Assembly: GCF_027942865.1 (NCBI RefSeq)
Contig: NC_134509.1
Span: 12,054,017-12,118,016, forward strand
DNA: 64,000 nucleotides
Origin: Odontesthes bonariensis
Taxonomy: Eukaryota; Chordata; Actinopteri; Atheriniformes; Atherinopsidae
Direction of reading: 5' to 3'
The notes beneath the pieces are model-generated. The model searched no databases. It was not told where the DNA came from and was given only the letters and a program-made list of their open reading frames with translations. The translations under genes were made by a program, and so were the position numbers. Below are positions 7,672 through 58,111 of the stretch, one piece after another (position 1 is the first letter of the stretch; the number at the start of each line of letters is the position of its first letter).

Positions 7672-8840
7672 TCACTTGTACAACTTATACTGCATGTTCC
7701 AGAGTTTGGAGGAGGCAACCCCAATAACGCAGCAGGCGAGCCTTCGGCCTGCATTCCCATCTAACAAGCTCCCTGGGTTTCCACCAAGCCCTAAGTCATC
7801 TTCGCGTTCATGAATCACCACTGATCTTCCAAACACAGACGTGACTCCAAACAGTGTCGCATCAGATTCTATCAGCGCACTGATTTTTCCTTGCTGAGGC
7901 AAAAAGTTACCAAAGTCTCCTGGGTGGTTAGGGTGATCCACACCGTATGGATTGTAGTGGCCGCCAGTTGAGTCACATCCGCGGCTCAGGTCTCCATACT
8001 GATAGATGTGCACAGCTCTGTATTCTGGAGAGCCCTCTGTGGGGAAGCCACTGAAACTGAGAAGGACTTGCAGTTTTCCCTGAGAGGGATGCTGCTTAAA
8101 AAGCACCCGACCATAGATTTTGGGCAGGCCATCAGGGAGTGTAGAGCTCGGTTTCACTTTGCAGACTCCATACAGAGCGCCATTGGGCTGCGAGACCTCT
8201 GGTGGAAGCAGAGTATCAGTGTGCGCCGAGACACATTGTTGAAAGCCTGCCAGCAAGACCAACAGAGCGGTTTCCAGTACACTCACTGACCTGAAACATA
8301 TTGGAATAACAGGACAATGCATATCAAATGTGTTGCATGGGCTTTAGATTAAATCAACATATATTTTTGGCAGAATTTAGACTATTTAAATAAGTAAAAG
8401 AAGCTGTTTGTTTACAGGCAGGAGTCCTACAGTAAGAGGGTTATGTCACTGATGGGGTTGGAGCTGATTTAAGAAAGCCCATCAGGTAATTAGATGGTAT
8501 TTTCTATGTTAATTATAAGTTTGGTATAAAAGCCTAAAATGCAATCAACTACTACTTTTGTGCATTTTAGTAAAACAAAGAAAAAAAAAGGTAACATTTT
8601 TTTAACATGACAGTTTACAGTAGCACAGTGACTACCTCCATCATTTTAGTGGCTGGGATCTGTTACTTTTTACAAACTTCTACAGATTACACACTCAGGG
8701 ATGAGACTTCAAAACTACTAGCAGGTTTTTATCTTACCATAAAGGTAAACGGTATAACGCAGTGTGTAAAGTTAATGGCGTGCCCCTGCAAAACCATGAA
8801 GACTTTAGTATACTTACCCGTGTGGTCGCATGATCGCCAT
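7672..8840 (-). CDS. sod3: Extracellular Cu/Zn superoxide dismutase-like, copy 1 (copper ligand His to Tyr)
   Basis: Secreted Cu/Zn superoxide dismutase family (superoxide to hydrogen peroxide and oxygen, outside the cell). I place the start in a short first exon, 8840-8818 (MAIMRPHG). It ends in donor GGTAAGTA and joins in frame across a 527-bp intron to acceptor TTTCAG at 8291 and exon 2, 8290-7672. An in-frame TGA precedes the start, and a TATA box lies about 95 bp upstream. The 213-residue product has a signal peptide (residues 1-30, VSA then HTDT) and the SOD fold. Metal and active-site residues seen are His102, His119, His127, His130, Asp133 and His168, the loop Arg191, and the Cys113-Cys194 pair. 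Residue 104 (codon 8002-8004) is Tyr where SOD1 His48 and SOD3 carry a copper ligand. The C-terminus KLWNMQYKLYK lacks the basic heparin-binding tail of mammalian SOD3. The gene is likely expressed and folded but copper-defective; that is inference. Confidence 0.9.
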
Positions 8841-11439: not shown

Positions 11440-11714
11440 TAGATAGTCAAAAGTATGAACACGTAGTAGAGCGGGACGTGTTTCAGCAGAAGGCTCATCG
11501 GCTCAACGTGGAAATGAACCACATCGTGGTTCTCTCAGACGTCCTGAAGCTCGTCTGAGAGGGACTTCACGCTGTGCTCCAGCACCTCATTCTGTGGCAA
11601 AAACAACCCACGCCAAATCATTACCTCAACTGCGACTTCATCCAATAACACCGCGCATTTTCCGGTTTATAGGTTGTGTATCATCTCTTACGTGTTCATA
11701 CTTTTGACTATCTA
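11440..11714. repeat. Partly deleted inverted repeat, unit 2
   Basis: The right arm (11538-11714, 177 bp) is whole. Only the outer 27 bp of the left arm (11440-11466) survive, joined to exon B sequence. The intact form is seen in units 4 and 5. Confidence 0.85.
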
Positions 11715-11742
11715 GGCAAGGCAAGGCAAGGCAAGGCAAGGC
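11714..11742 (+). repeat. (GGCAA)n tract, 5 units
   Basis: Short version of the L2 tail microsatellite. Confidence 0.95.
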
Positions 11743-13453
11743 ATCTTTATTTATATAGCTCATTTCATACCACAGGCAACTCAATATGCTTTACATAAAG
11801 ACAAGGCATTTAAAAGAACAGCATAAAGCAGCATAAAAACAAGCAATTTAAAGAGAAAAAATTAGAATAGACATCAAAACACAGAGTTAAAAGCAATCAC
11901 AGAAGAGGGAAAAAAGAAAAATATAAAACAATTAAGAGGATTTATAGCATTATGCTTTAAAATTATTTAAAGGAACTCAACCATAAGCACACCGAAAGAG
12001 AAATGTTTGTAACCTGGATTTAAAAGTGCTTACAGTTGTGGCTGATTTCAGTTCTGCTGGTAGTTTGTTCCAGTTGTGTGCAGCATAACAGCTAAAAGCT
12101 GCTTCACCGTGTCCAGTTTGAACTCTGGCCTCCACTATCTGACCTGAGTCAGTAGATCTCAGAGCTCTACTGGGTTTATACTCTACTAGCATGTCATTCA
12201 TGTATTCTGGACCTAAACCATTCCGTGATTTGTAGAGGAGAAGCAGAACTTTAAAATCTATTCTGTATCTGACCGGGAGCCAATGTAAAGACTTGAGAAC
12301 TGGGGTGATGTTATCTGATCTCTTTGTTCTGGTTAAAACTCGGGCTGCAGCCTTCTGAATGAGCTGCAGCTGTTTGAGACTCTTTTGGGGGAGTCCAGTC
12401 AGAAGACCGTGACATGAAACCCTTAACTCTGGATATGTTCTTAAGTTGATAAAAGGCTGTTTTGGTGACTGATTTGATATGATAGTTGAAGGTCAGGTCT
12501 GAGTCTATCAGCACGCCAAGGTTCCGGACTTGGTCTTTAGTTTCTAGAGATAGTGACTCAAGGTGTTTACTGACAGCAAACCTCTTCTCTTTGTTGCCAA
12601 ACACAATGACCTCAAATTTTTCTTGATTTAACTGAAGGAAATTTTGGTTCATCCACTTTTTGACTTGCTCTAAGCAGTCGCACAATGACTCTGTAGGACT
12701 GCAGTCATAGTTTTAAAGAAGTCAGATGGCATTGTGTCAAGACGGGATGTCGATGGTTTAAGATGCTGGACTGTTTCTTCTATGGTTTTTGGTCAACTGT
12801 ATTGAATTCTGACATCATAGTTGATTGATTCCTAGGTGGTTTTAAGGATTGCGTCATTTTATTATTTTTCTGATTTGTGTTGATATTTAGCCTTATAGAT
12901 TTGATTGCTTTCATTTAAAAAGCAAGCGAATTCATTGCATTTTTCTGTGGAACAGAGTTCTGAAACTATCTGTTTTTGGGGGGTGTCAGCTTATCAACCA
13001 TAGCAAACAGAGCACGAGTGTTGTTGATGTTCTTATTAATCATTTCAGATAAGTGTTGCTGTCTAGCCTTGAGTAACCCGTGGTTAAAATGACAAAGACT
13101 TTGTTTGTAGAGGTCATGGTGAATTTGAAGTTTAGTTTTTCTCCATTTACGCTCTGCTTTCCTGCATTCTGTTTTCAAGGCCTTTACCATCATAGTGTTC
13201 CTTCATGGTGTTCGCTTTCTGCACTCGCAGTTGATGACATAGCTATAACTTCCAGAAACTTAGCACTGGTATTCTCATTTATGTACCTTTTTCTAACAGA
13301 CACACGGGTTAACTGACTGTTTGGAGATAACTGTAAGGCAGAGAACACACAGAAATGATCAGAGAGCGCCAAGTCCTTGATATCAACAGAAGAAATGTCA
13401 ACACACTTAGAGATAAACAGAGATAAAGAACTTTTTTGTTGCACTACTGCCAC
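11743..13453 (-). mobile_element. L2-like LINE fragment, unit 2
   Basis: Same element and same internal deletions as in unit 1. It keeps the 45-bp segment near 11815-11860 that unit 1 lacks. Confidence 0.75.
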
Positions 13454-19270: not shown

Positions 19271-20439
19271 TCACTTGTACAACTTATACTGCATGTTCCA
19301 GAGTTTGGAGGAGGCAACCCCAATAACGCAGCAGGCGAGCCTTCGGCCTGCATTCCCATCTAACAAGCTCCCTGGGTTTCCACCAAGCCCTAAGTCATCT
19401 TCGCGTTCATGAATCACCACTGATCTTCCAAACACAGACGTGACTCCAAACAGTGTCGCATCAGATTCTATCAGCGCACTGATTTTTCCTTGCTGAGGCA
19501 AAAAGTTACCAAAGTCTCCTGGGTGGTTAGGGTGATCCACACCGTATGGATTGTAGTGGCCGCCAGTTGAGTCACATCCGCGGCTCAGGTCTCCATACTG
19601 ATAGATGTGCACAGCTCTGTATTCTGGAGAGCCCTCTGTGGGGAAGCCACTGAAACTGAGAAGGACTTGCAGTTTTCCCTGAGAGGGATGCTGCTTAAAA
19701 AGCACCCGACCATAGATTTTGGGCAGGCCATCAGGGAGTGTAGAGCTCGGTTTCACTTTGCAGACTCCATACAGAGCGCCATTGGGCTGCGAGACCTCTG
19801 GTGGAAGCAGAGTATCAGTGTGCGCCGAGACACATTGTTGAAAGCCTGCCAGCAAGACCAACAGAGCGGTTTCCAGTACACTCACTGACCTGAAACATAT
19901 TGGAATAACAGGACAATGCATATCACATGTGTTGCATGGGCTTTAGATTAAATCAACATATATTTTTGGCAGAATTTAGACTATTTAAATAAGTAAAAGA
20001 AGCTGTTTGTTTACAGGCAGGAGTCCTACAGTAAGAGGGTTATGTCACTGATGGGGTTGGAGCTGATTTAAGAAAGCCCATCAGGTAATTAGATGGTATT
20101 TTCTATGTTAATTATAAGTTTGGTATAAAAGCCTAAAATGCAATCAACTACTACTTTTGTGCATTTTAGTAAAACAAAGAAAAAAAAAGGTAACATTTTT
20201 TTAACATGACAGTTTACAGTAGCACAGTGACTACCTCCATCATTTTAGTGGCTGGGATCTGTTACTTTTTACAAACTTCTACAGATTACACACTCAGGGA
20301 TGAGACTTCAAAACTACTAGCAGGTTTTTATCTTACCATAAAGGTAAACGGTATAACGCAGTGTGTAAAGTTAATGGCGTGCCCCTGCAAAACCATGAAG
20401 ACTTTAGTATACTTACCCGTGTGGTCGCATGATCGCCAT
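19271..20439 (-). CDS. sod3: Extracellular SOD-like, copy 2 (copper ligand His to Tyr)
   Basis: Exon 1 is 20439-20417 and exon 2 is 19889-19271, with splice sites as in copy 1. The protein is identical to copy 1 by eye, including Tyr104 and Arg after His168-Glu (HERED). The frame is fully open and the 213 residues end in QYKLYK. The first downstream AATAAA present in copy 1 (7579-7584) is mutated here; the distal one remains. Confidence 0.9.
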
Positions 20440-23038: not shown

Positions 23039-23313
23039 TAGATAGTCAAAAGTATGAACACGTAGTAGAGCGGGACGTGTTTCAGCAGAAGGCTCATCGG
23101 CTCAACGTGGAAATGAACCACATCGTGGTTCTCTCAGACGTCCTGAAGCTCGTCTGAGAGGGACTTCACGCTGTGCTCCAGCACCTCATTCTGTGGCAAA
23201 AACAACCCACGCCAAATCATTACCTCAACTGCGACTTCATCCAATAACACCGCGCATTTTCCGGTTTATAGGTTGTGTATCATCTCTTACGTGTTCATAC
23301 TTTTGACTATCTA
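23039..23313. repeat. Partly deleted inverted repeat, unit 3
   Basis: Same deletion as unit 2: outer left-arm stub followed by a complete 177-bp right arm. Confidence 0.85.
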
Positions 23314-23341
23314 GGCAAGGCAAGGCAAGGCAAGGCAAGGC
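23313..23341 (+). repeat. (GGCAA)n tract, 5 units
   Basis: Same short allele as unit 2. Confidence 0.95.
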
Positions 23342-24999
23342 ATCTTTATTTATATAGCTCATTTCATACCACAGGCAACTCAATATGCTTTACATAAAGA
23401 CAAGGCATTTAAAAGAACAGCATAAAGCAGCATAAAAACAAGCAATTTAAAGAGAAAAAATTAGAATAGACATCAAAACACAGAGTTAAAAGCAATCACA
23501 GAAGAGGGAAAAAAGAAAAATATAAAACAATTAAGAGGATTTATAGCATTATGCTTTAAAATTATTTAAAGGAACTCAACCATAAGCAGACCGAAAGAGA
23601 AATGTTTGTAACCTGGATTTAAAAGTGCTTACAGTTGTGGCTGATTTCAGTTCTGCTGGTAGTTTGTTCCAGTTGTGTGCAGCATAACAGCTAAAAGCTG
23701 CTTCACCGTGTCCAGTTTGAACTCTGGCCTCCACTATCTGACCTGAGTCAGTAGATCTCAGAGCTCTACTGGGTTTATACTCTACTAGCATGTCATTCAT
23801 GTATTCTGGACCTAAACCATTCCGTGCTTTGTAGACGAGAAGCAGAACTTTAAAATCTATTCTGTATCTGACCGGGAGCCAATGTAAAGACTTGAGAACT
23901 GGGGTGATGTGATCTGATCTCTTTGTTGTGTTTAAAACTCGGGCTGCAGCCTTCTGAATGAGCTGCAGCTGTTTGAGACTCTTTTGGGGGAGTCCAGTCA
24001 GAAGACCGTGACATGAAACCCTTAACTCTGGATATGTTCTTAAGTTGATAAAAGGCTGTTTTGGTGACTGATTTGATATGATAGTTGAAGGTCAGGTCTG
24101 AGTCTATCAGCACGCCGAGGTTCCGGACTTGGTCTTTAGTTTCTAGAGATAGTGACTCAAGGTGTTTACTGACAGCAAACCTCTTCTCTTTGTTGCCAAA
24201 CACAATGACCTCAAATTTTTCTTGATTTAACTGAAGGAAATTTTGGTTCATCCACTTTTTGACTTGCTCTAAGCAGTCGCACAATGACTCTGTAGGACTG
24301 CAGTCATAGTTTTAAAGAAGTCAGATGGCATTGTGTCAAGACGGGATGTCGATGGTTTAAGATGCTGGACTGTTTCTTCTGGTTTTTGGTCAACTGTATT
24401 GAATTCTGACATCATAGTTGATTGATTCCTAGGTGGTTTTAAGGATTGCGTCATTTTATTATTTTGCTGATTTGTGTTGATATTTAGCCTTATAGATTTG
24501 ATTGCTTTCATTTAAAAAGCAAGCGAATTCATTGCATTTTTCTGTGGAACAGAGTTCTGAAACTATCTGTTTTTGGGGGGTGTCAGCTTATCAACCATAG
24601 CAAACAGAGCACGAGTGTTGTTGATGTTCTTATTAATCATTTCAGATAAGTGCTGCTGTCTAGCCTTGAGTAACCCGTGGTTAAAATGACAAAGACTTTG
24701 TTTGTAGAGGTCATGGTGAATTTGAAGTTTAGTTTTTCTCCATTTACGCTCTGCTTTCCTGCATTCTGTTTTCAAGGCCTTTACCATCATAGTGTTCCTT
24801 CATGGTGTTCGCTTTCTGCACTCGCAGTTGATGACATAGCTATAACTTCCAGAAACTTAGCACTGGTATTCTCATTTATGTACCTTTTTCTAACAGACAC
24901 ACGGGTTAACTGACTGTTTGGAGATAACTGTAAGGCAGAGAAAACAGAAATGATCAGAGAGCGCCAAGTCCTTGATATCAACAGAAGAAATGTCAACAC
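23342..24999 (-). mobile_element. L2-like LINE fragment, unit 3
   Basis: Same element as in the other units, with a few small losses near 24380 and 24940. Confidence 0.75.
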
Positions 25000-30860: not shown

Positions 30861-32028
30861 TCACTTGTACAACTTATACTGCATGTTCCAGAGTTTGGAG
30901 GAGGCAACCCCAATAACGCAGCAGGCGAGCCTTCGGCCTGCATTCCCATCTAACAAGCTCCCTGGGTTTCCACCAAGCCCTAAGTCATCTTCGCTTTCAT
31001 GAATCACCACTGATCTTCCAAACACAGACGTGACTCCAAACAGTGTCGCATCAGATTCTATCAGCGCACTGATTTTTCCTTGCTGAGGCAAAAAGTTACC
31101 AAAGTCTCCTGGGTGGTTAGGGTGATCCACACCGTATGGATTGTAGTGGCCGCCAGTTGAGTCACATCCGCGGCTCAGGTCTCCATACTGATAGATGTGC
31201 ACAGCTCTGTATTCTGGAGAGCCCTCTGTGGGGAAGCCACTGAAACTGAGAAGGACTTGCAGTTTTCCCTGAGAGGGATGCTGCTTAAAAAGCACCCGAC
31301 CATAGATTTTGGGCAGGCCATCAGGGAGTGTAGAGCTCGGTTTCACTTTGCAGACTCCATACAGAGCGCCATTGGGCTGCGAGACCTCTGGTGGAAGCAG
31401 AGTATCAGTGTGCGCCGAGACACATTGTTGAAAGCCTGCCAGCAAGACCAACAGAGCGGTTTCCAGTACACTCACTGACCTGAAACATATTGGAATAACA
31501 GGACAATGCATATCAAATGTCTTGCATGGGCTTTAGATTAAATCAACATATATTTTTGGCAGAATTTAGACTATTTAAATAAGTAAAAGAAGCTGTTTGT
31601 TTACAGGCAGGAGTCCTACAGTAAGAGGGTTATGTCACTGATGGGGTTGGAGCTGATTTAAGAAAGCCCATCAGGTAATTAGATGGTATTTTCTATGTTA
31701 ATTATAAGTTTGGTATAAAAGCCTAAAATGCAATCAAATACTACTTTTGTGCATTTTAGTAAAACAAAGAAAAAAAAAGGTAACTTTTTTTAACATGACA
31801 GTTTACAGTAGCACAGTGACTACCTCCATCATTTTAGTGGCTGGGATCTGTTACTTTTTACAAACTTCTACAGATTACACACTCAGGGATGAGACTTCGA
31901 AACTACTAGCAGGTTTTTATCTTACCATAAAGGTAAACGGTATAACGCAGTGTGTAAAGTTAATGGCATGCCCCTGCAAAACCATGAAGACTTTAGTATA
32001 CTTACCCGTGTGGTCGCATGATCGCCAT
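30861..32028 (-). CDS. sod3: Extracellular SOD-like, copy 3 (copper ligand His to Tyr)
   Basis: Exon 1 is 32028-32006 and exon 2 is 31479-30861. The frame is open, 213 residues, Tyr104 as in copies 1 and 2. It differs from them by Arg170 to Ser (HESEDDLG), just after the active-site His168. It is otherwise the same protein by eye. Confidence 0.9.
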
Positions 32029-34643: not shown

Positions 34644-35072
34644 TAGATAGTCAAAAGTATGAACACGTAGGAGATGATACACAACCTATAAACCGGAAAA
34701 TGCGCGGTGTTATTGGATGAAGTAGCAGTTGAGGTAATGATTTGGCGTGCGTTGTTTTTGCCACAGAATGAGGTGCTGGAGCACAGCGTGAAGTCCCTCT
34801 CAGACGAGCTTCAGGACGTCAGAGCAGAGCGGGACGTGTTTCAGCAGAAGGCTCATCGGCTCAACGTGGAAATGAACCACATCGTGGTTCACTCAGACGT
34901 CCTGAAGCTCGTCTGAGAGGGACTTCACGCTGTGCTCCAGCACCTCATTCTGTGGCAAAAACAACCCACGCCAAATCATTACCTCAACTGCGACTTCATC
35001 CAATAACACCGCGCATTTTCCGGTTTATAGGTTGTGTATCATCTCTTACGTGTTCATACTTTTGACTATCTA
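34644..35072. repeat. Inverted repeat around ccdc149 exon B, unit 4
   Basis: Left arm 34644-34820 and right arm 34896-35072, each 177 bp and nearly identical as reverse complements, around a 75-bp spacer. The left arm holds ccdc149 intron, acceptor and the first half of exon B. The spacer holds the rest of exon B. The right arm ends exactly at the GGCAA tract. Confidence 0.92.
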
Positions 35073-35195
35073 GGCAAGGCAAGGCAAGGCAAGGCAAGGC
35101 AAGGCAAGGCAAGGCAAGGCAAGGCAAGGCAAGGCAAGGCAAGGCAAGGCAAGGCAAGGCAAGGCAAGGCAAGGCAAGGCAGGGCAAGGCAAGGC
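35072..35195 (+). repeat. (GGCAA)n tract, 24 units
   Basis: Longest allele in the window, with one AGGGC variant near its end. Confidence 0.95.
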
Positions 35196-36906
35196 ATCTT
35201 TATTTATATAGCTCATTTCATACCACAGGCAACTCAATGTGCTTTACATAAAGACAAAGCATTTAAAAGAACAGCATAAAGCAGCATAAAAACAAGCAAT
35301 TTAAAGAGAAAAAAATTAGAATAGACATCAAAACACAGAGTTAAAAGCAATCACAGAAGAGGGGAAAAAAGAAAAATATAAAACAATTAAGAGGATTTAT
35401 AGCATTATGCTTTAAAATTATTTAAAGGAACTCAACCATAAGCACACCGAAAGAGAAATGTTTGTAACCTGGATTTAAAAGTGCTTACAGTTGTGGCTGA
35501 TTTCAGTTCTGCTGGTAGTTTGTTCCAGTTGTGTGCAGCATAACAGTTAAAAGCTGCTTCACCGTGTCTAGTTTGAACTCTGGCCTCCACTATCTGACCT
35601 GAGTCAGTAGATCTCAGAGCTCTACTGGGTTTATACTCTACTAGCATGTCATTCATGTATTCTGGACCTAAACCATTCCGTGATTTGTAGAGGAGAAGCA
35701 GAACTTTAAAATCTATTCTGTATCTGACCGGGAGCCTATGTAAAGACTTGAGAACTGGGGTGATGTGATCTGATCTCTTTGTTGTGTTTAAAACTCGGGC
35801 TGCAGCCTTCTGAATGAGCTGCAGCTGTTTGAGACTCTTTTGGGGGAGTCCAGTCAGAAGACCGTGACATGAAACCCTTAACTCTGGATATGTTCTTAAG
35901 TTGATAAAAGGCTGTTTTGGTGACTGATTTGATATGATAGTTGAAGGTCAGGTCTGAGTCTATCAGCACGCCAAGGTTCCGGACTTGGTCTTTAGTTTAT
36001 AGAGATAGTGACTCAAGGTGTTTACTGACAGCAAACCTCTTCTCTTTGTTGCCAAACACAATGACCTCAAATTTTTCTTGATTTAACTGAAGGAAATTTT
36101 GGTTCATCCACTTTTTGACTTGCTCTAAGCAGTCGCACAATGACTCTGTAGGACTGCAGTCATAGTTTTAAAGAAGTCAGATGGCATTGTGTCAAGACGG
36201 GATGTCGATGTTTTAAGATGCTGGACTGTTTCTTCTGGTTTTTGGTCAACTGTATTGAATTCTGACATCATAGTTCATTGATTCCTAGGTGGTTTTAAGG
36301 ATTGCGTCATTTTATTATTTTTCTGATTTGTGTTGATATTTAGCCTTATAGATTTGATTGCTTTCATTTAAAAAGCAAGCAAATTCATTGCATTTTTCTG
36401 TGGAACAGAGTTCTGAAACTATCTGTTTTTGGGGGGTGTAAGCTTATCAACCATAGCAAACAGAGCACGAGTGTTGTTGATGTTCTTATTAATCATTTCA
36501 GATAAGTGTTGCTGTCTAGCCTTGAGTAACCCGTGGTTAAAATGACAAAGACTTTGTTTGTAGAGGTCATGGTGAATTTGAAGTTTAGTTTTTCTCCATT
36601 TACGCTCTGCTTTCCTGCATTCTGTTTTCAAGGCCTTTACCATCATAGTGTTCCTCCATGGTGTTCGCTTTCTGCACTCGCAGTTGATGACATAGCTATA
36701 ACTTCCAGAAACTTAGCACTGGTATTCTCATTTATGTACCTTTTTCTAACAGACACACGGGTTAACTGACTGTTTGGAGTTAACTTTAAGGCAGAGAACA
36801 CACAGAAATGATCAGAGAGCGCCAAGTCGTTGATATCAACAGGAGAAATGTCAACACACTTAGAGATAAACAGAGATAAAGAACTTTTTTGTTGCACTAC
36901 TGCCAC
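35196..36906 (-). mobile_element. L2-like LINE fragment, unit 4
   Basis: Same element and internal deletions; shares most single-base variants with unit 5. Confidence 0.75.
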
Positions 36907-42666: not shown

Positions 42667-43834
42667 TCACTTGTACAACTTATACTGCATGTTCCAGAGT
42701 TTGGAGGAGGCAACCCCAATAACGCAGCAGGCGAGCCTTCGGCCTGCATTCCCATCTAACAAGCTCCCTGGGTTTCCACCAAGCCCTAAGTCATCTTCGC
42801 TTTCATGAATCACCACTGATCTTCCAAACACAGACGTGACTCCAAACAGTGTCGCATCAGATTCTATCAGCGCACTGATTTTTCCTTGCTGAGGCAAAAA
42901 GTTACCAAAGTCTCCTGGGTGGTTAGGGTGATCCACACCGTATGGATTGTAGTGGCCGCCAGTTGAGTCACATCCGCGGCTCAGGTCTCCATACTGATAG
43001 ATGTGCACAGCTCTGTATTCTGGAGAGCCCTCTGTGGGGAAGCCACTGAAACTGAGAAGGACTTGCAGTTTTCCCTGAGAGGGATGCTGCTTAAAAAGCA
43101 CCCGACCATAGATTTTGGGCAGGCCATCAGGGAGTGTAGAGCTCGGTTTCACTTTGCAGACTCCATACAGAGCGCCATTGGGCTGCGAGACCTCTGGTGG
43201 AAGCAGAGTATCAGTGTGCGCCGAGACACATTGTTGAAAGCCTGCCAGCAAGACCAACAGAGCGGTTTCCAGTACACTCACTGACCTGAAACATATTGGA
43301 ATAACAGGACAATGCATATCAAATGTGTTGCATGGGCTTTAGATTAAATCAACATATATTTTTGGCAGAATTTAGACTATTTAAATAAGTAAAAGAAGCT
43401 GTTTGTTTACAGGCAGGAGTCCTACAGTAAGAGGGTTATGTCACTGATGGGGTTGGAGCTGATTTAAGAAAGCCCATCAGGTAATTAGATGGTATTTTCT
43501 ATGTTAATTATAAGTTTGGTATAAAAGCCTAAAATGCAATCAAATACTACTTTTGTGCATTTTAGTAAAACAAAGAAAAAAAAAGGTAACTTTTTTTAAC
43601 ATGACAGTTTACAGTAGCACAGTGACTACCTCCATCATTTTAGTGGCTGGGATCTGTTACTTTTTACAAACTTCTACAGATTACACACTCAGGGATGAGA
43701 CTTCGAAACTACTAGCAGGTTTTTATCTTACCATAAAGGTAAACGGTATAACGCAGTGTGTAAAGTTAATGGCATGCCCCTGCAAAACCATGAAGACTTT
43801 AGTATACTTACCCGTGTGGTCGCATGATCGCCAT
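42667..43834 (-). CDS. sod3: Extracellular SOD-like, copy 4 (copper ligand His to Tyr)
   Basis: Exon 1 is 43834-43812 and exon 2 is 43285-42667. The frame is open, 213 residues, identical by eye to copy 3 with Tyr104 and Ser170. Keeping a full frame in four copies, while the ccdc149 parts of the same units have decayed, hints at retained function or very recent amplification. The sequence alone cannot separate these. Confidence 0.9.
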
Positions 43835-46449: not shown

Positions 46450-46878
46450 TAGATAGTCAAAAGTATGAACACGTAGGAGATGATACACAACCTATAAACC
46501 GGAAAATGCGCGGTGTTATTGGATGAAGTAGCAGTTGAGGTAATGATTTGGCGTGCGTTGTTTTTGCCACAGAATGAGGTGCTGGAGCACAGCGTGAAGT
46601 CCCTCTCAGACGAGCTTCAGGACGTCAGAGCAGAGCGGGACGTGTTTCAGCAGAAGGCTCATCGGCTCAACGTGGAAATGAACCACATCGTGGTTCTGTC
46701 AGACGTCCTGAAGCTCGTCTGAGAGGGACTTCACGCTGTGCTCCAGCACCTCATTCTGTGGCAAAAACAACGCACGCCAAATCATTACCTCAACTGCGAC
46801 TTCATCCAATAACACCGCGCATTTTCCGGTTTATAGGTTGTGTATCATCTCTTACGTGTTCATACTTTTGACTATCTA
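46450..46878. repeat. Inverted repeat around ccdc149 exon B, unit 5
   Basis: Left arm 46450-46626 and right arm 46702-46878, 177 bp each, with a 75-bp spacer. By eye the arms differ at only a few positions. Confidence 0.92.
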
Positions 46879-46976
46879 GGCAAGGCAAGGCAAGGCAAGG
46901 CAAGGCAAGGCAAGGCAAGGCAAGGCAAGGCAAGGCAAGGCAAGGCAAGGCAAGGCAAGGCAAGGCAAGGCAAGGC
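46878..46976 (+). repeat. (GGCAA)n tract, 19 units
   Basis: L2 tail microsatellite of unit 5. Confidence 0.95.
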
Positions 46977-48687
46977 ATCTTTATTTATATAGCTCATTTC
47001 ATACCACAGGCAACTCAATGTGCTTTACATAAAGACAAAGCATTTAAAAGAACAGCATAAAGCAGCATAAAAACAAGCAATTTAAAGAGAAAAAAATTAG
47101 AATAGACATCAAAACACAGAGTTAAAAGCAATCACAGAAGAGGGGAAAAAAGAAAAATATAAAACAATTAAGAGGATTTATAGCATTATGCTTTAAAATT
47201 ATTTAAAGGAACTCAACCATAAGCACACCGAAAGAGAAATGTTTGTAACCTGGATTTAAAAGTGCTTACAGTTGTGGCTGATTTCAGTTCTGCTGGTAGT
47301 TTGTTCCAGTTGTGTGCAGCATAACAGTTAAAAGCTGCTTCACCGTGTCTAGTTTGAAATCTGGCCTCCACTATCTGACCTGAGTCAGTAGATCTCAGAG
47401 CTCTACTGGGTTTATACTCTACTAGCATGTCATTCATGTATTCTGGACCTAAACCATTCCGTGATTTGTAGAGGAGAAGCAGAACTTTAAAATCTATTCT
47501 GTATCTGACCGGGAGCCTATGTAAAGACTTGAGAACTGGGGTGATGTGATCTGATCTCTTTGTTGTGTTTAAAACTCGGGCTGCAGCCTTCTGAATGAGC
47601 TGCAGCTGTTTGAGACTCTTTTGGGGGAGTCCAGTCAGAAGACCGTGACATGAAACCCTTAACTCTGGATATGTTCTTAAGTTGATAAAAGGCTGTTTTG
47701 GTGACTGATTTGATATGATAGTTGAAGGTCAGGTCTGAGTCTATCAGCACGCCAAGGTTCCGGACTTGGTCTTTAGTTTATAGAGATAGTGACTCAAGGT
47801 GTTTACTGACAGCAAACCTCTTCTCTTTGTTGCCAAACACAATGACCTCAAATTTTTCTTGATTTAACTGAAGGAAATTTTGGTTCATCCACTTTTTGAC
47901 TTGCTCTAAGCAGTCGCACAATGACTCTGTAGGACTGCAGTCATAGTTTTAAAGAAGTCAGATGGCATTGTGTCAAGACGGGATGTCGATGGTTTAAGAT
48001 GCTGGACTGTTTCTTCTGGTTTTTGGTCAACTGTATTGAATTCTGACATCATAGATGATTGATTCCTAGGTGGTTTTAAGGATTGCGTCATTTTATTATT
48101 TTGCTGATTTGTGTTGATATTTAGCCTTATAGATTTGATTGCTTTCATTTAAAAAGCAAGCAAATTCATTGCATTTTTCTGTGGAACAGAGTTCTGAAAC
48201 TATCTGTTTTTGGGGGGTGTAAGCTTATCAACCATAGCAAACAGAGCACGAGTGTTGTTGATGTTCTTATTAATCATTTCAGATAAGTGTTGCTGTCTAG
48301 CCTTGAGTAACCCGTGGTTAAAATGACAAAGACTTTGTTTGTAGAGGTCATGGTGAATTTGAAGTTTAGTTTTTCTCCATTTACGCTCTGCTTTCCTGCA
48401 TTCTGTTTTCAAGGCCTTTACCATCATAGTGTTCCTCCATGGTGTTCGCTTTCTGCACTCGCAGTTGATGACATAGCTATAACTTCCAGAAACTTAGCAC
48501 TGGTATTCTCATTTATGTACCTTTTTCTAACAGACACACGGGTTAACTGACTGTTTGGAGTTAACTTTAAGGCAGAGAACACACAGAAATGATCAGAGAG
48601 CGCCAAGTCGTTGATATCAACAGGAGAAATGTCAACACACTTAGAGATAAACAGAGATAAAGAACTTTTTTGTTGCACTACTGCCAC
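46977..48687 (-). mobile_element. L2-like LINE fragment, unit 5
   Basis: Same element as in the other units. Confidence 0.75.
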
Positions 48688-53480: not shown

Positions 53481-54408
53481 TTTGTACATGTAACTGATGA
53501 ATAGGAACTAAATCTTTTTTTTGTGACAGCTGTAACTGTAAAATAATTTTTAAAAAGTTGCTTTTTCAAGTCTGTTATATAAAGACACAACAATGGTTCA
53601 TATCTTGAGCTTAGAGCTTTAATGACTCATTGCTCACATTTTAGTGGCTTAACACACCCAAAAAAACACTGAATATTCTGAAAATGGTACATGGTCTGGA
53701 CTGATATGGGGTGAAAAAGAAGCCAATGTTCATTTCTTTGAAAGGTTTTAAAAAAGACTGGAGACTAATTTAAAAGATTACATGTAAGTCTGGCTCCTTG
53801 GATGCAAAATATAAAGAAACCAGGGTCGGTTCAAGCCTTTTTGCACCGTAATGTAGGTCAATTGATATTTTGTTGTATGCTGCCCTTGATGTAAAGCTTA
53901 ACACTGTGTACTGCAGAATATATTTCAGGGTTTTATTCATAAACAAAGAAGAAAAACTTGTAGAGACTTGACTTTGCAAAGCTTGCACGAGGTTAGCCTG
54001 GTTGCGTGCAAACTTTTTCTGAGAGAGCGTACATGGCGATGGGAGTGGCATTTTAAGGCTTTTGATCAGAAAAGGAAAGTGGTCGGTTAGAAGGAAAGTA
54101 ATTACATTCATCCAGGTGATAATGAGATGCCATACACAGTTGTCAGGAAATCTATAACAAGTGTTCACCTCTTTGTGATTCAGGAGTAGAAAACAAACGA
54201 TCAAGATCACCAGGGTGATTCAGATTCATCCTTTATTCATCAAAGTCCACAACCTGACAAACAATCTTATATGGAATATTACTTCAACTACATTGATAAT
54301 CCACTGCAATTTGGTTGATTTTTTTTCTTTTATATAAGAATCCAGTGGATAAAATAATGAATAAAAACAAAGGCAAAATCTGTGTGCTAAACAAAGGAAC
54401 GTCTCACT

Positions 54409-54508
54409 CGTACAACTTATACTGCATGTTCCAGAGTTTGGAGGAGGCAACCCCAATAATGCAGCAGGCGAGCCTTCGGCCTGCATTCCCATGCAACAAG
54501 CTCCCTGG
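54409..54508 (-). pseudogene. sod3: sod3 3'-end fragment next to copy 5
   Basis: The minus strand encodes GNAGRRLACCIIGVASSKLW and then NMQYKLYE before a stop. This is the C-terminus of the copy-1-4 type, not that of copy 5 (ITSSSRWDMQYKRYGRHL). It is broken off at 54508. There the sequence returns to GCAAAATCTGTGTGCTAAAC, a direct repeat of about 36 bp also present at about 54372. It is a relic of a second, partly deleted sod3 gene or of a local duplication. Confidence 0.85.
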
Positions 54509-54553
54509 GCAAAATCTGTGTGCTAAACAAAGGAACGTCTCACTACTTTGGGA

Positions 54554-55777
54554 CTAATTTCTCCCCAAATGCCTCCCGTACCGCTTATACTGCATGTCCC
54601 AGCGACTGGAGGAGGTAATCCCAATAACGCAGCAGGCGAGCCTTCGGCCTGCATTCCCATGCAACAAGCTCCCTGTGTCTCCACCAAGCCCTAAGTCATC
54701 TATCCTTTCATGAATCACCACTGATCTTCCAAACACAGACAGGCCTCCAAACAGTGTCGCATCAGATTCTATCAGCGCACTGATTTTTCCTTGCTGAGGC
54801 AAAAAGTTACCAAAGTCTCCTGGGTGGTTAGGGTGATCCACACCGTATGGATTGTAGTGGCCGCCAGTTGAGTCACATCCGCGGCTCAGGTCTCCATACT
54901 GGTGGATGTGCACAGCTCTGGATACTGGAGAGCCCTCTGTGGGGAAGCCACTGAAACTGAGAAGGACTTGCAGTTTTCCCTGAGAGAGATCCTGCTTTAA
55001 AAGCACCTGACCGTAGATTTTGGGCAGGCCATCAGGGAGTGAAGAGCTCGGTCTCACTTTGCAGACTCCATACAGAGTGCCATTGTGCTGCGAGACCTCT
55101 GGTGGAAGCAGAGCGCCATTGTGCTGCGAGACCTCTGGTGGAAGCAGAGTATCAGTGTGCGTCGAGACACATTGTTGAAAGCCTGCCAGCAAGACCAACA
55201 GAGCGATTTCCAGTACACTCACTGACCTGAAACATATTGGAATAACAGGACAATGCATATCAAATGTGTTGCATGGGCTTTAGATTAAATCAACATATAT
55301 TTTTGGCAGAATTTAGACTATTCAAATAAGTAAAAGAAGCTGTTTGTTTACAGGCAGGAGTCCTACAGTAAGAGGGTTATGTCACTGATGGGGTTGGAGC
55401 TGATTTAAGAAAGCCCATCAGGTAATTAGATGGTATTTTCTATGTTAATTATAAGTTTGGTATAAAAGCCTAAAATGCAATCAACTACTACTTTTGTGCA
55501 TTTTAGTAAAACAAAGAAAAAAAAGTTAAAATTCTTTTTTAACATGACAGTTTACAGTAGCACAGTGACTACCTCCATCATTTTAGTGGCTGGGATCTGT
55601 TACTTTTTACAAACTTCTACAGATTACACACTCAGGGATGAGACTTCGAAACTACTAGCAGGTTTTTATCTTACCATAAAGGTAAACGGTATAACGCAGT
55701 GTGTAAAGTTAATGGCGTGCCCCTGCAAAACCATGAAGACTTTAGTATACTTACCCGTGTGGTCGCATGATCGCCAT
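54554..55777 (-). CDS. sod3: Extracellular Cu/Zn superoxide dismutase, copy 5 (complete copper site)
   Basis: Exon 1 is 55777-55755 and exon 2 is 55226-54554, with the same start and splice sites as the other copies; about 231 residues. The copper and zinc ligands are all present: His114 and His116 (AVHIHQYGD), His131, His139, His142, Asp145 and His180, with active-site Arg203 and the Cys125-Cys206 pair. The signal peptide is kept, although the cleavage site reads CVST. Residues LLPPEVSQHNGA are duplicated in tandem by a 36-bp repeat (55075-55146). The C-terminus RWDMQYKRYGRHLGRN is longer and more basic than in copies 1-4, closer to a heparin-binding tail. About 24 residues differ from copy 1, yet about 50 residues from QYGDLSRG to SDATLFG are identical. 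This is the best candidate for the active enzyme at the locus. Confidence 0.92.
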
Positions 55778-55930: not shown

Positions 55931-58111
55931 AACTTGTGAGTTTTTGCAACTCGCGAGATCAGGAACGCCTGCTTTGTCGGACATGACTGCAAAAACACAA
56001 AAATCCGAACTTGGAGGCTCCGCCTTCCGTGCGGGAACCCCCATCCAAAACTCATCCGCTCCAAATTACAGCCCAGCTTTGCCCAAGTAAACAGCACCAT
56101 CTGTTAAGTTGAAACTGTAATTATAGAACCAAAAAATTAAATAAATAAATAAAGGAAAAGGAAGGTAGATTTAAAAAAAAAGGGGGTTGGGGGATGTCAA
56201 ATGCGGATATAATTAAATTTCCCGTAGTGGTAAATGTCGGTGGGCTATATCTGAATCAAGACTTCAAGACTTTGAATAGCCTATAGTAGACTGTGACCCA
56301 CCCTGGCTTCAAAGCTCTGTTTTGGATGGAAACGCAAACAGGAGGGATTTAATGATTTCTGTAACAGTCAGTACCGGTTCACCCAATACGCACCCAATAT
56401 GCCCTACGCACGATGCGCAGGGCTCAGCAAACTCATATAGAATAATAATAAACTTTATTTCACAGACTCGTGGTCCAGATAAGAATTTGCAGTACATTAA
56501 AAAGACATTAAAAGATATACACATACATTTATAGCGGCCCCCCGGGGAAAAAAAGCCCTGGGTGAACCGGACTGTGCGTCTTGCTATAGCTTCTGTAATT
56601 CAAGTGTTATATCAATCGCTCTGAGTGTAGTTACAACTGCACTTATACAAAATGGAAAGTAATGGATAAATATTTACTAAGATTGAATTTTGTTTGCTTG
56701 GATAGCCCACAGGCAAATGAAGATGCAGATGTGAATAAATAAAACTCGTGAAATATTATGACAATGGTCCTAGAAAGGCTAAATAATAATCTAAATCACC
56801 TACATTTTAAGTATATGAAGGTAAAACAAGTGCAGTGTTGGGTCTAAAAGTTAACCCAGCTGGAACACAGTTCACTCAAGACAACCCCAGTGATCAACAA
56901 AACACACAGTGCACAAGATTGTATTTTTACTTGCAAGGGGAGCCGGACGGAGTGACAGAACTTACTCCTTCACCTGTGCTCAAACGACTCCATCCGACTT
57001 TCCCCGTGTAGTTCTTTTTATTACACAGCTTAGTTACAATCAGCACACGTAAAACAATCTTGTGAGCAAGATGCAACAAATGTTTCACTGGGACATCTAG
57101 TTCCTCACGTGTTGAGTTGTTGCACATTCTCCTGCATGGGAAGACCAGAGCACCCTGTTTCCCACAGTTCCCTTGAATTACTTTGTATCACACTAAGCAA
57201 AGTTCACACACTACATGTCTGTCTATAAAATGTTGTTTACTAGAAATGAAAATCTATATACAGTTTTCCAATATGCAGTCAATTTGATGGAGCTGAATTA
57301 ATGGTAGCCTGATCCATATTTTACAGGTGCAATGCTCAAGTTCCTAACAAGCAGCACAGAGTCCAGTCAGTCAGCCATTGGAGGGACAGACCCAGATAAG
57401 ATAGGCACAGATGAACCACCTTCACCCAACAGCAGCACAGGTCCAGTACAGCCACCGTTAAGTACGTGTGCACAGCAAGCATCAGAAGCTAGCTCAGACC
57501 CTAAAGCAACAGTCTCTGCTCCACCAAATGATCCAGCAGACTGGCCCCCAGTCTTAACGGACTGCATGCGGACTGAGTTAGTTAGTGCGCAGAGGTCAAT
57601 TCAAGCCAGGAGTGGATTTTTCTTACCCCAAAGACAAGTTCAGTTAAAAAATTATCAAAAACTGAGATCTTCCATGTCCCAGGAACGTCTGAGTGGTTTG
57701 GCTATCATGAGCATCAACCATGATGTGTGGAAGCCAATATCATATGATGACATTGATGCATTTTGCATCCAAGTGCAGAAAGGGACACTTTTAATCGTGA
57801 GTAATTTGTTACACATTTAGTTAGATTTGATCTGTATTTATTTTGAGTTAGACTAACAGGTGGTGACACTAGTGCAATATGTTTAAAGGGGTGATGAGTG
57901 GAAGCACTGGGTGTCAGGAGTGACTGTTCAGTTAAGAGAGCCCCATAGCAGAATTTTGCCTAGGGCCCCATGGAGGTCTGAACCGGCTCTGGTAAACCCA
58001 CCGGCCCCAACGTGGTTGCACCAGAGTAAGATTTTTTTTTTTAAATATATGTTTTCATTTCCATGTAGGCCTATGTTATATGTAAACTGATCTGAAACAA
58101 TCCATTTTTGA
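55931..58111. other. 2.2-kb block present only in unit 5
   Basis: Units 1-4 run directly from TTTTGTCTA to TCAGCCATGACA (TCACCCATGAAA in unit 1); in unit 5 about 2.18 kb separates these points. No clean target-site duplication flanks the block. It contains a hAT-like element (56369-57991) plus flanks 55931-56368 and 57992-58111, in which nothing was recognised. It may be an insertion into unit 5 or a deletion in the ancestor of the other units. Confidence 0.85.
56369..57991 (+). mobile_element. hAT-like DNA transposon, internally deleted
   Basis: Possible ends CAGTACCGGTTCA (56369) and TGAACCGGCTCTG (to 57991) form an imperfect inverted repeat. The flanking octamers GTAACAGT and GTAAACCC are only partly alike. 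The + strand open frame 57332-57820 (162 codons) joins an N-terminal segment with DWPPVLTDCMRTELV to a C-terminal LSGLAIMSINHDVWKP, reminiscent of the hAT dimerisation tail. The zinc finger and catalytic middle are missing, so it is non-autonomous. A second inverted match ends at 56574 (GGTGAACCGGACTG), suggesting a nested short element 56369-56574. Confidence 0.6.

Follow-up and report, generated by a model that had tools for sequence, protein, structure and literature searches.

Tyrosine at a copper-ligand position in nine of ten tandem SOD3 genes of the fish Odontesthes bonariensis, a possible secreted pseudoenzyme

Extracellular SOD-domain proteins that are reported to lack superoxide dismutase (SOD) activity are known from molluscs, namely dominin/cavortin of oysters and pernin of mussels (PMC13017621, PMC6530089). 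Dominin/cavortin is described in these accounts as a major oyster plasma protein with a defective copper site, for which roles in metal binding and immunity have been proposed, and five of its metal-site histidines are reported to be changed (PMC12784942). The Cu/Zn-SOD genes of oysters include tandem clusters of three to four genes, although the account, as excerpted, does not state whether dominin belongs to them (PMC9118643). Domain II of human CCS, an intracellular protein in which this domain is fused to copper-binding domains, has three of the four copper histidines and an intact zinc site; it is reported neither to bind copper nor to dismute superoxide, and one reverse change turns it into a SOD (PMC13017621). 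Among fishes, the blackfin icefish carries three tandem sod3 genes from a recent amplification, which was read as an antioxidant gain in an account that, as excerpted, makes no mention of the copper ligand (PMC7307600).

A Sod_Cu family search of the Odontesthes bonariensis genome (945 Mb, 187 contigs) returned 18 matches, of which ten form a single block on contig C4, three lie on C21 and are SOD1-like by sequence, two lie on C24 and are CCS-like by sequence, and three fall within a 707-aa frame elsewhere on C4 (28.13 Mb). In a rebuilt 174-kb region, the block resolves into a tandem array of ten SOD3 genes on the minus strand (C4:11,993,888-12,109,274), with a spacing of 10.9 to 19.5 kb between copies. 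The stretch of DNA analyzed here (the window, 64,000 nucleotides, positions 12,054,017 to 12,118,016 of the same contig) contains four copies of what we call the Tyr type and one of the His type, and its copies 1 to 5 correspond to array copies k6 to k10 (Table 1). Every one of the ten copies has an open frame and exceeds the Sod_Cu cut-off in the whole-genome search (curated cut-off, 28.9 bits; two Tyr copies that were scanned scored 98.9 and 99.1 bits, and the His copy scored 97.1 bits), and the top PDB match is human SOD3 (2JLP) (E = 7.4e-54). The array lies between an LGI-family gene and DHX15, with the DNA that separates it from them annotated in part. As the human SOD3 locus presumably also lies between DHX15 and an LGI gene, these neighbors fit an array at the orthologous vertebrate SOD3 locus. 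AGGCA pentanucleotide arrays of 6 to 25 copies recur at approximately the spacing of the units, and in two units a stretch of ~430 bp that is ~90 to 91% identical to its own reverse complement adjoins the AGGCA array.

Table 1. Positions of SOD3 genes and associated features in the window
Feature	Window position	Strand	Details
Copy 1 (k6), Tyr type, coding exon 1	8818..8840	-	ATGGCGATC...; donor GTAAGT
Copy 1 (k6), Tyr type, coding exon 2	7672..8290	-	
Copy 1 (k6), TAT (Tyr)	8002..8004	-	SOD1-His48 position, by alignment to 2JLP
Copy 2 (k7), Tyr type, exon 2	19271..19889	-	Exon 1 at 20417-20439
Copy 2 (k7), TAT (Tyr)	19601..19603	-	
Copy 3 (k8), Tyr type, exon 2	30861..31479	-	Exon 1 at 32006-32028; R173S (ORF numbering)
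Copy 3 (k8), TAT (Tyr)	31191..31193	-	
Copy 4 (k9), Tyr type, exon 2	42667..43285	-	Exon 1 at 43812-43834; R173S (ORF numbering)
Copy 4 (k9), TAT (Tyr)	42997..42999	-	
Copy 5 (k10), His type, exon 2	54554..55226	-	Exon 1 at 55755-55777
Copy 5 (k10), CAC (His)	54902..54904	-	Sole His copy of ten
36-bp tandem repeat in k10 exon	55073..55168	-	Extra LLPPEVSQHNG block near mature N terminus
Second SOD3 3' coding end	54404..54509	-	Downstream of k10 stop codon
2,180-bp stretch	55931..58110	.	~150 bp upstream of k10 start codon
LTR-like repeat, ~436 bp	about 56836-57274		Inside the 2,180-bp stretch
AGGCA arrays	97-206, 11714-11743, 23313-23342, 35072-35196, 46878-46977		
Reverse-transcriptase-like fragment	666-1100, 12311-12685, 23850-24284		Matching places inside array units
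Self-complementary stretch, ~430 bp	34644-35072, 46450-46878		

With splicing read by eye, the likely gene consists of a 23-bp coding exon 1, an intron of ~526 bp, and exon 2. Exon 1 ends at a GTAAGT donor, a TTTCAG acceptor precedes exon 2, and exon 1, donor, and acceptor are found in all ten copies. The open reading frame (ORF) start MHCPVIP is intronic in this model; the predicted spliced protein begins MAIMRPHG..., and a hydrophobic, signal-like leader (MAIMRPHGSVSVLETALLVLLAGFQQCVSA) is encoded across the spliced exons. Script-spliced proteins from the five window copies have lengths of 213 aa (Tyr type) and 231 aa (His type), and the tyrosine is residue 104 of the predicted spliced precursor. 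Window copies 1 and 2 have identical coding sequences, as do copies 3 and 4, with a single difference in 651 positions between the pairs.

Nine of the ten array copies encode AVHIYQYGD, with the codon TAT, while AVHIHQYGD, with CAC, occurs solely in k10, the copy next to DHX15. In the alignment to 2JLP, the tyrosine lies opposite the second histidine of the HxH motif of human SOD3, i.e., at the position of SOD1 His48. The other copper ligands, the zinc ligands, the active-site Arg, and the disulfide cysteines are all intact, the last three being assigned by the established SOD numbering. The four-His copper site is consequently incomplete in nine genes and complete in k10. These readings agree with the original prediction, made from the window alone, which had placed a Tyr codon at exactly 8002..8004 in copy 1, the same change near 19602, 31192, and 42998, and CAC in copy 5, with the remaining metal ligands, Arg, and cysteines intact and the frames open. 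Its figure of four Tyr copies is right for the window but falls short of the array total of nine Tyr copies and one His copy; likewise, TAT and CAC do differ by the two base substitutions it had counted, only one of which changes the amino acid.

An error in the reference would be a trivial explanation of this pattern, whether through collapsed or duplicated copies or through a wrong base, as tandem arrays are hard to assemble and a single assembly was used. Against this, the nine copies differ in their flanks and spacing and still have the same codon, two bases are changed in every Tyr copy, and the array sits inside a 43-Mb contig. We therefore regard an artefact as highly improbable. As the Tyr exons are nearly identical, a single change in a founder, with later amplification, accounts better for the nine Tyr copies than nine separate changes do. 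In this scenario, a single founder SOD3 copy would have changed His to Tyr and would then have been amplified within the SOD3 locus, mostly as a unit of ~11 to 12 kb.

The substitution is real, and it looks unusual for SOD3, since the SOD1 and CCS-like genes of the same genome retain HVH at this site and since a study of sturgeon SODs describes the metal-coordinating residues as identical between its SODs and the aligned orthologues (SOD3 tree, n = 77 sequences) (PMC7913737). Human SOD3 has His at this position as well. A literature search by title or abstract start found no paper describing a His-to-Tyr SOD3 in fish, and neither sod3 nor superoxide dismutase is mentioned in the main text of a study of 24 notothenioid species (PMC10256766). 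A scan of viral contigs returned no relatives from outside this genome.

What the loss of this histidine would do to copper chemistry can be judged from SOD1, in which, according to a review, the H46R and H48Q mutations completely abolish both copper affinity and activity (PMC4881462). This matches the expectation of the original prediction that a true copper ligand has been lost and that changes at His48 impair copper chemistry. Because H48Q SOD1 loses both copper and activity, the Tyr-type proteins can be expected, by analogy, to have lost dismutase function as well, and we think it very probable that they have little or no such activity. CCS domain II serves as a second precedent, and an oyster extracellular SOD that lacks one of the four copper ligands has similarly been predicted to be inactive (PMC9118643). 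Another role that had been suggested for the Tyr copies, heparin binding, finds no counterpart in the Tyr-type tail, which ends in KLYK and is without a basic run. Human SOD3 presumably has a C-terminal run of basic residues.

Tyrosine can serve as a copper ligand in some enzymes, and judging from the sequence, it is possible that copper in the Tyr-type protein is Tyr ligated, with altered chemistry. The Tyr copies could then still be copper SODs, with three His and either Tyr or water as the fourth ligand, and their amplification would raise the dose of extracellular SOD; altered redox chemistry or weaker binding would perhaps be acceptable outside the cell. In line with this, the remaining active-site residues are all intact, and the three tandem sod3 genes of blackfin icefish were interpreted in terms of antioxidant dosage (PMC7307600). 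Extracellular Cu-only SODs are described as tolerating reduced copper affinity (PMC13017621), and a dominin homologue of Hyotissa with a single metal-site change was taken to be potentially active (PMC12784942). The H46R/H48Q and CCS (D200) precedents point the other way (PMC4881462, PMC13017621), as do the identity of metal residues among aligned SOD3 orthologues (PMC7913737) and the predicted inactivity of the oyster SOD (PMC9118643). On balance, we consider it unlikely that the Tyr copies are active SODs.

To characterize variation among the Tyr copies, we compared exon 2 to the surrounding DNA. Across the nine copies, 2 of 619 exon 2 sites were variable, compared to 80 of 3,259 nearby noncoding sites (P = 1.7e-4 by Fisher's test); an earlier nine-copy run with long flanks gave closely matching exon, intron, and upstream counts. 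With longer flanks and eight copies (k2 being left out as its 3' flank was unaligned), the counts were 2 of 619 and 164 of 6,242 (P = 4.5e-5). In the eight-copy alignment, 619-column windows with two or fewer variable sites begin only at positions -4 to 155, which correspond to exon 2 and its immediate surroundings. This deficit of variation suggests purifying constraint on the Tyr coding exon, as far as can be judged from the sequences, and it is this near invariance among copies that leads us to think that the Tyr type is kept for a noncatalytic role.

The amplification is young. Mean pairwise divergence among the nine Tyr copies in noncoding DNA is 0.0088 (range, 0.0020 to 0.0123), which at the rate quoted for icefish (3.28e-9) (PMC7307600) gives a rough guess of ~1.3 million years, the rate being borrowed and the history of the array mosaic. 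Open frames by themselves say little at such an age. A close rival to a selected noncatalytic role is that the unit grew by unequal crossing over and carried SOD3 along as a passenger under relaxed constraint. Tyr would then be a loss that a redundant copy could tolerate, and the frames would be open for no other reason than the recency of the amplification. The ~0.9% difference between units in noncoding DNA (~1.3 million years if the icefish rate holds) is in keeping with such passive growth, as are the variable spacing of the copies and the presence within the unit of a reverse-transcriptase-like fragment, whose RVT_1 match (fragment 666-1100) is below the curated cut-off. Furthermore, the only two exon variants, S32W in k5 and R173S in k8 and k9 (ORF numbering), are both nonsynonymous. 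The exon is also just marginally less variable than its immediate neighbors: when the comparison is confined to the intron and 3' flank next to it, the contrast is 2 of 619 versus 16 of 975 in nine copies (P = 0.014) and 2 of 619 versus 13 of 1,025 in eight copies (P = 0.06). On the other hand, ~15 exon changes would be expected at the overall flanking rate, and only 2 were seen, and all ten genes remain open. We hold passenger amplification to be nearly as credible as a selected noncatalytic role, if itself tentative.

Synonymous changes were also scarce among the Tyr copies (0 seen, 3.7 expected; P = 0.026). As synonymous sites are depleted too, homogenization by gene conversion could produce the exon coldspot, and the invariance of the exon could thus reflect constraint, local homogenization, or both. 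That the Tyr copies were retained by selection for a noncatalytic role is what we infer tentatively, at odds somewhat below even.

The single His copy might be expected to preserve the ancestral state, and the original prediction had used it as the normal control. Our comparisons argue against this. Exon 2 of k10 is ~93% identical to that of the Tyr type, and its C terminus is different and longer. When 21 amino acid differences between the types were polarized by human SOD3, the human residue was shared by the Tyr type at 6, by the His copy at 2 (sites 101 and 107, the latter being the ligand), and by neither at 13, with the qualifications that 4 of the 25 differing residues fall outside the human alignment and are uncounted and that a single distant outgroup is a weak judge. 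By sequence, then, the Tyr lineage looks more conserved than the His copy, aside from the ligand and its near neighbor. The His copy further differs by a 36-bp tandem repeat in its exon and by the 2,180-bp stretch close upstream of its start codon, which matches nothing else in the 174-kb region and is absent from window copy 1. Within this stretch, an LTR-like repeat of ~436 bp has at least 39 other near-full-length, near-identical copies genome-wide (40 of 202 candidates scored), and several of these are paired 8 to 9 kb apart on the same strand, as expected of LTRs. Given its divergence at human-conserved sites, its repeat, its altered tail, and the upstream stretch, we rejected the idea that copy 5 represents the ancestral state unaltered.

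The second SOD3 3' coding end beyond the k10 stop codon is 96.2% identical to the Tyr-type end and 90.9% identical to that of k10 itself, and it may be a relic of the origin of the two tail types. Divergence between k10 and the Tyr type varies along the gene, from 4.6 to 4.8% in the distal upstream region to 1.7% in the intron and 5.4% in the part of exon 2 before the site, while much of the downstream DNA is 0.5 to 2% divergent, and the shared downstream DNA includes long stretches that are 98 to 99.5% identical. This mosaic suggests that segments of different history have been brought together by gene conversion or crossing over, which makes simple dating of the His/Tyr split unsafe; the ~7 million years obtained from the distal-upstream divergence (~0.047) is a rough guess that shares the borrowed rate and the mosaic history. 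The contrast of dN/dS between the Tyr copies and copy 5 that the original prediction had proposed gave a suggestive nonsynonymous excess, but the result was not significant (dN = 0.062 and dS = 0.029 for the whole coding sequence; P = 0.10 by Fisher's test), and up to the DDLGLGG motif the P value was 0.44. We accordingly make no claim of positive selection from this excess.

Taken together, the best explanation overall is an amplified and retained noncatalytic SOD3, a vertebrate counterpart of dominin/cavortin, to which we assign a probability of roughly 0.4. The Tyr proteins would be secreted and would keep the SOD3 fold, the zinc site, and the disulfides, with one of the four copper histidines gone, and the copies would be kept for a noncatalytic, dose-dependent job. 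Candidates for this job are extracellular binding of zinc or other metals, ligand binding, and coassembly with the remaining His-type subunit. A fuller version, in which one substitution, nine-copy amplification, and locking of the exon led to a high-dose secreted SOD3 pseudoenzyme convergent with dominin while the His copy diverged with an insertion near its start, is unlikely to be right in all its parts.

Compared to human SOD3, the Tyr type has the same domain family, zinc ligands, disulfide cysteines, active-site Arg, signal-like leader, and DHX15/LGI locus; it differs in having Tyr for one of the four copper histidines (in nine of ten genes) and in lacking a basic C-terminal run. Oyster dominin/cavortin would be its closest functional parallel, by analogy, since dominin is an extracellular SOD-domain protein and the fish Tyr type is predicted to be one; dominin has five changed metal-site histidines and the fish Tyr type one. 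Dominin and pernin are molluscan and of independent origin, and the likeness would be one of mechanism and not of descent. CCS domain II resembles the Tyr type in the loss of exactly one of four copper histidines and in its intact zinc site (PMC13017621), but CCS is intracellular and fused to copper-binding domains, and it has Asp at another copper histidine (the His120 position by alignment) instead of Tyr at His48. The CCS-like gene of this genome retains HVH and has VVD. The sod3 cluster of blackfin icefish is likewise a recent tandem amplification in a fish, with three copies compared to ten here. Clustered globin-coding exons in the present genome speak against an icefish; a query resembling antifreeze glycoproteins, of low complexity and run with no positive control, gave no match and carries little weight. 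As a kind, the SOD-fold pseudoenzyme is thus already known; the nine-copy fish SOD3 variant is new, and its function is proposed by inference.

As the gained copies carry a ligand change, SOD3 copy number could mislead about activity. The mutation literature on SOD1 H48Q offers a ready comparison for the Tyr type, and because the change is young and the His copy survives alongside, a single genome provides both states for assay. If the Tyr protein is abundant, this array would be an example from a vertebrate in which an antioxidant enzyme has recently become a noncatalytic secreted protein.
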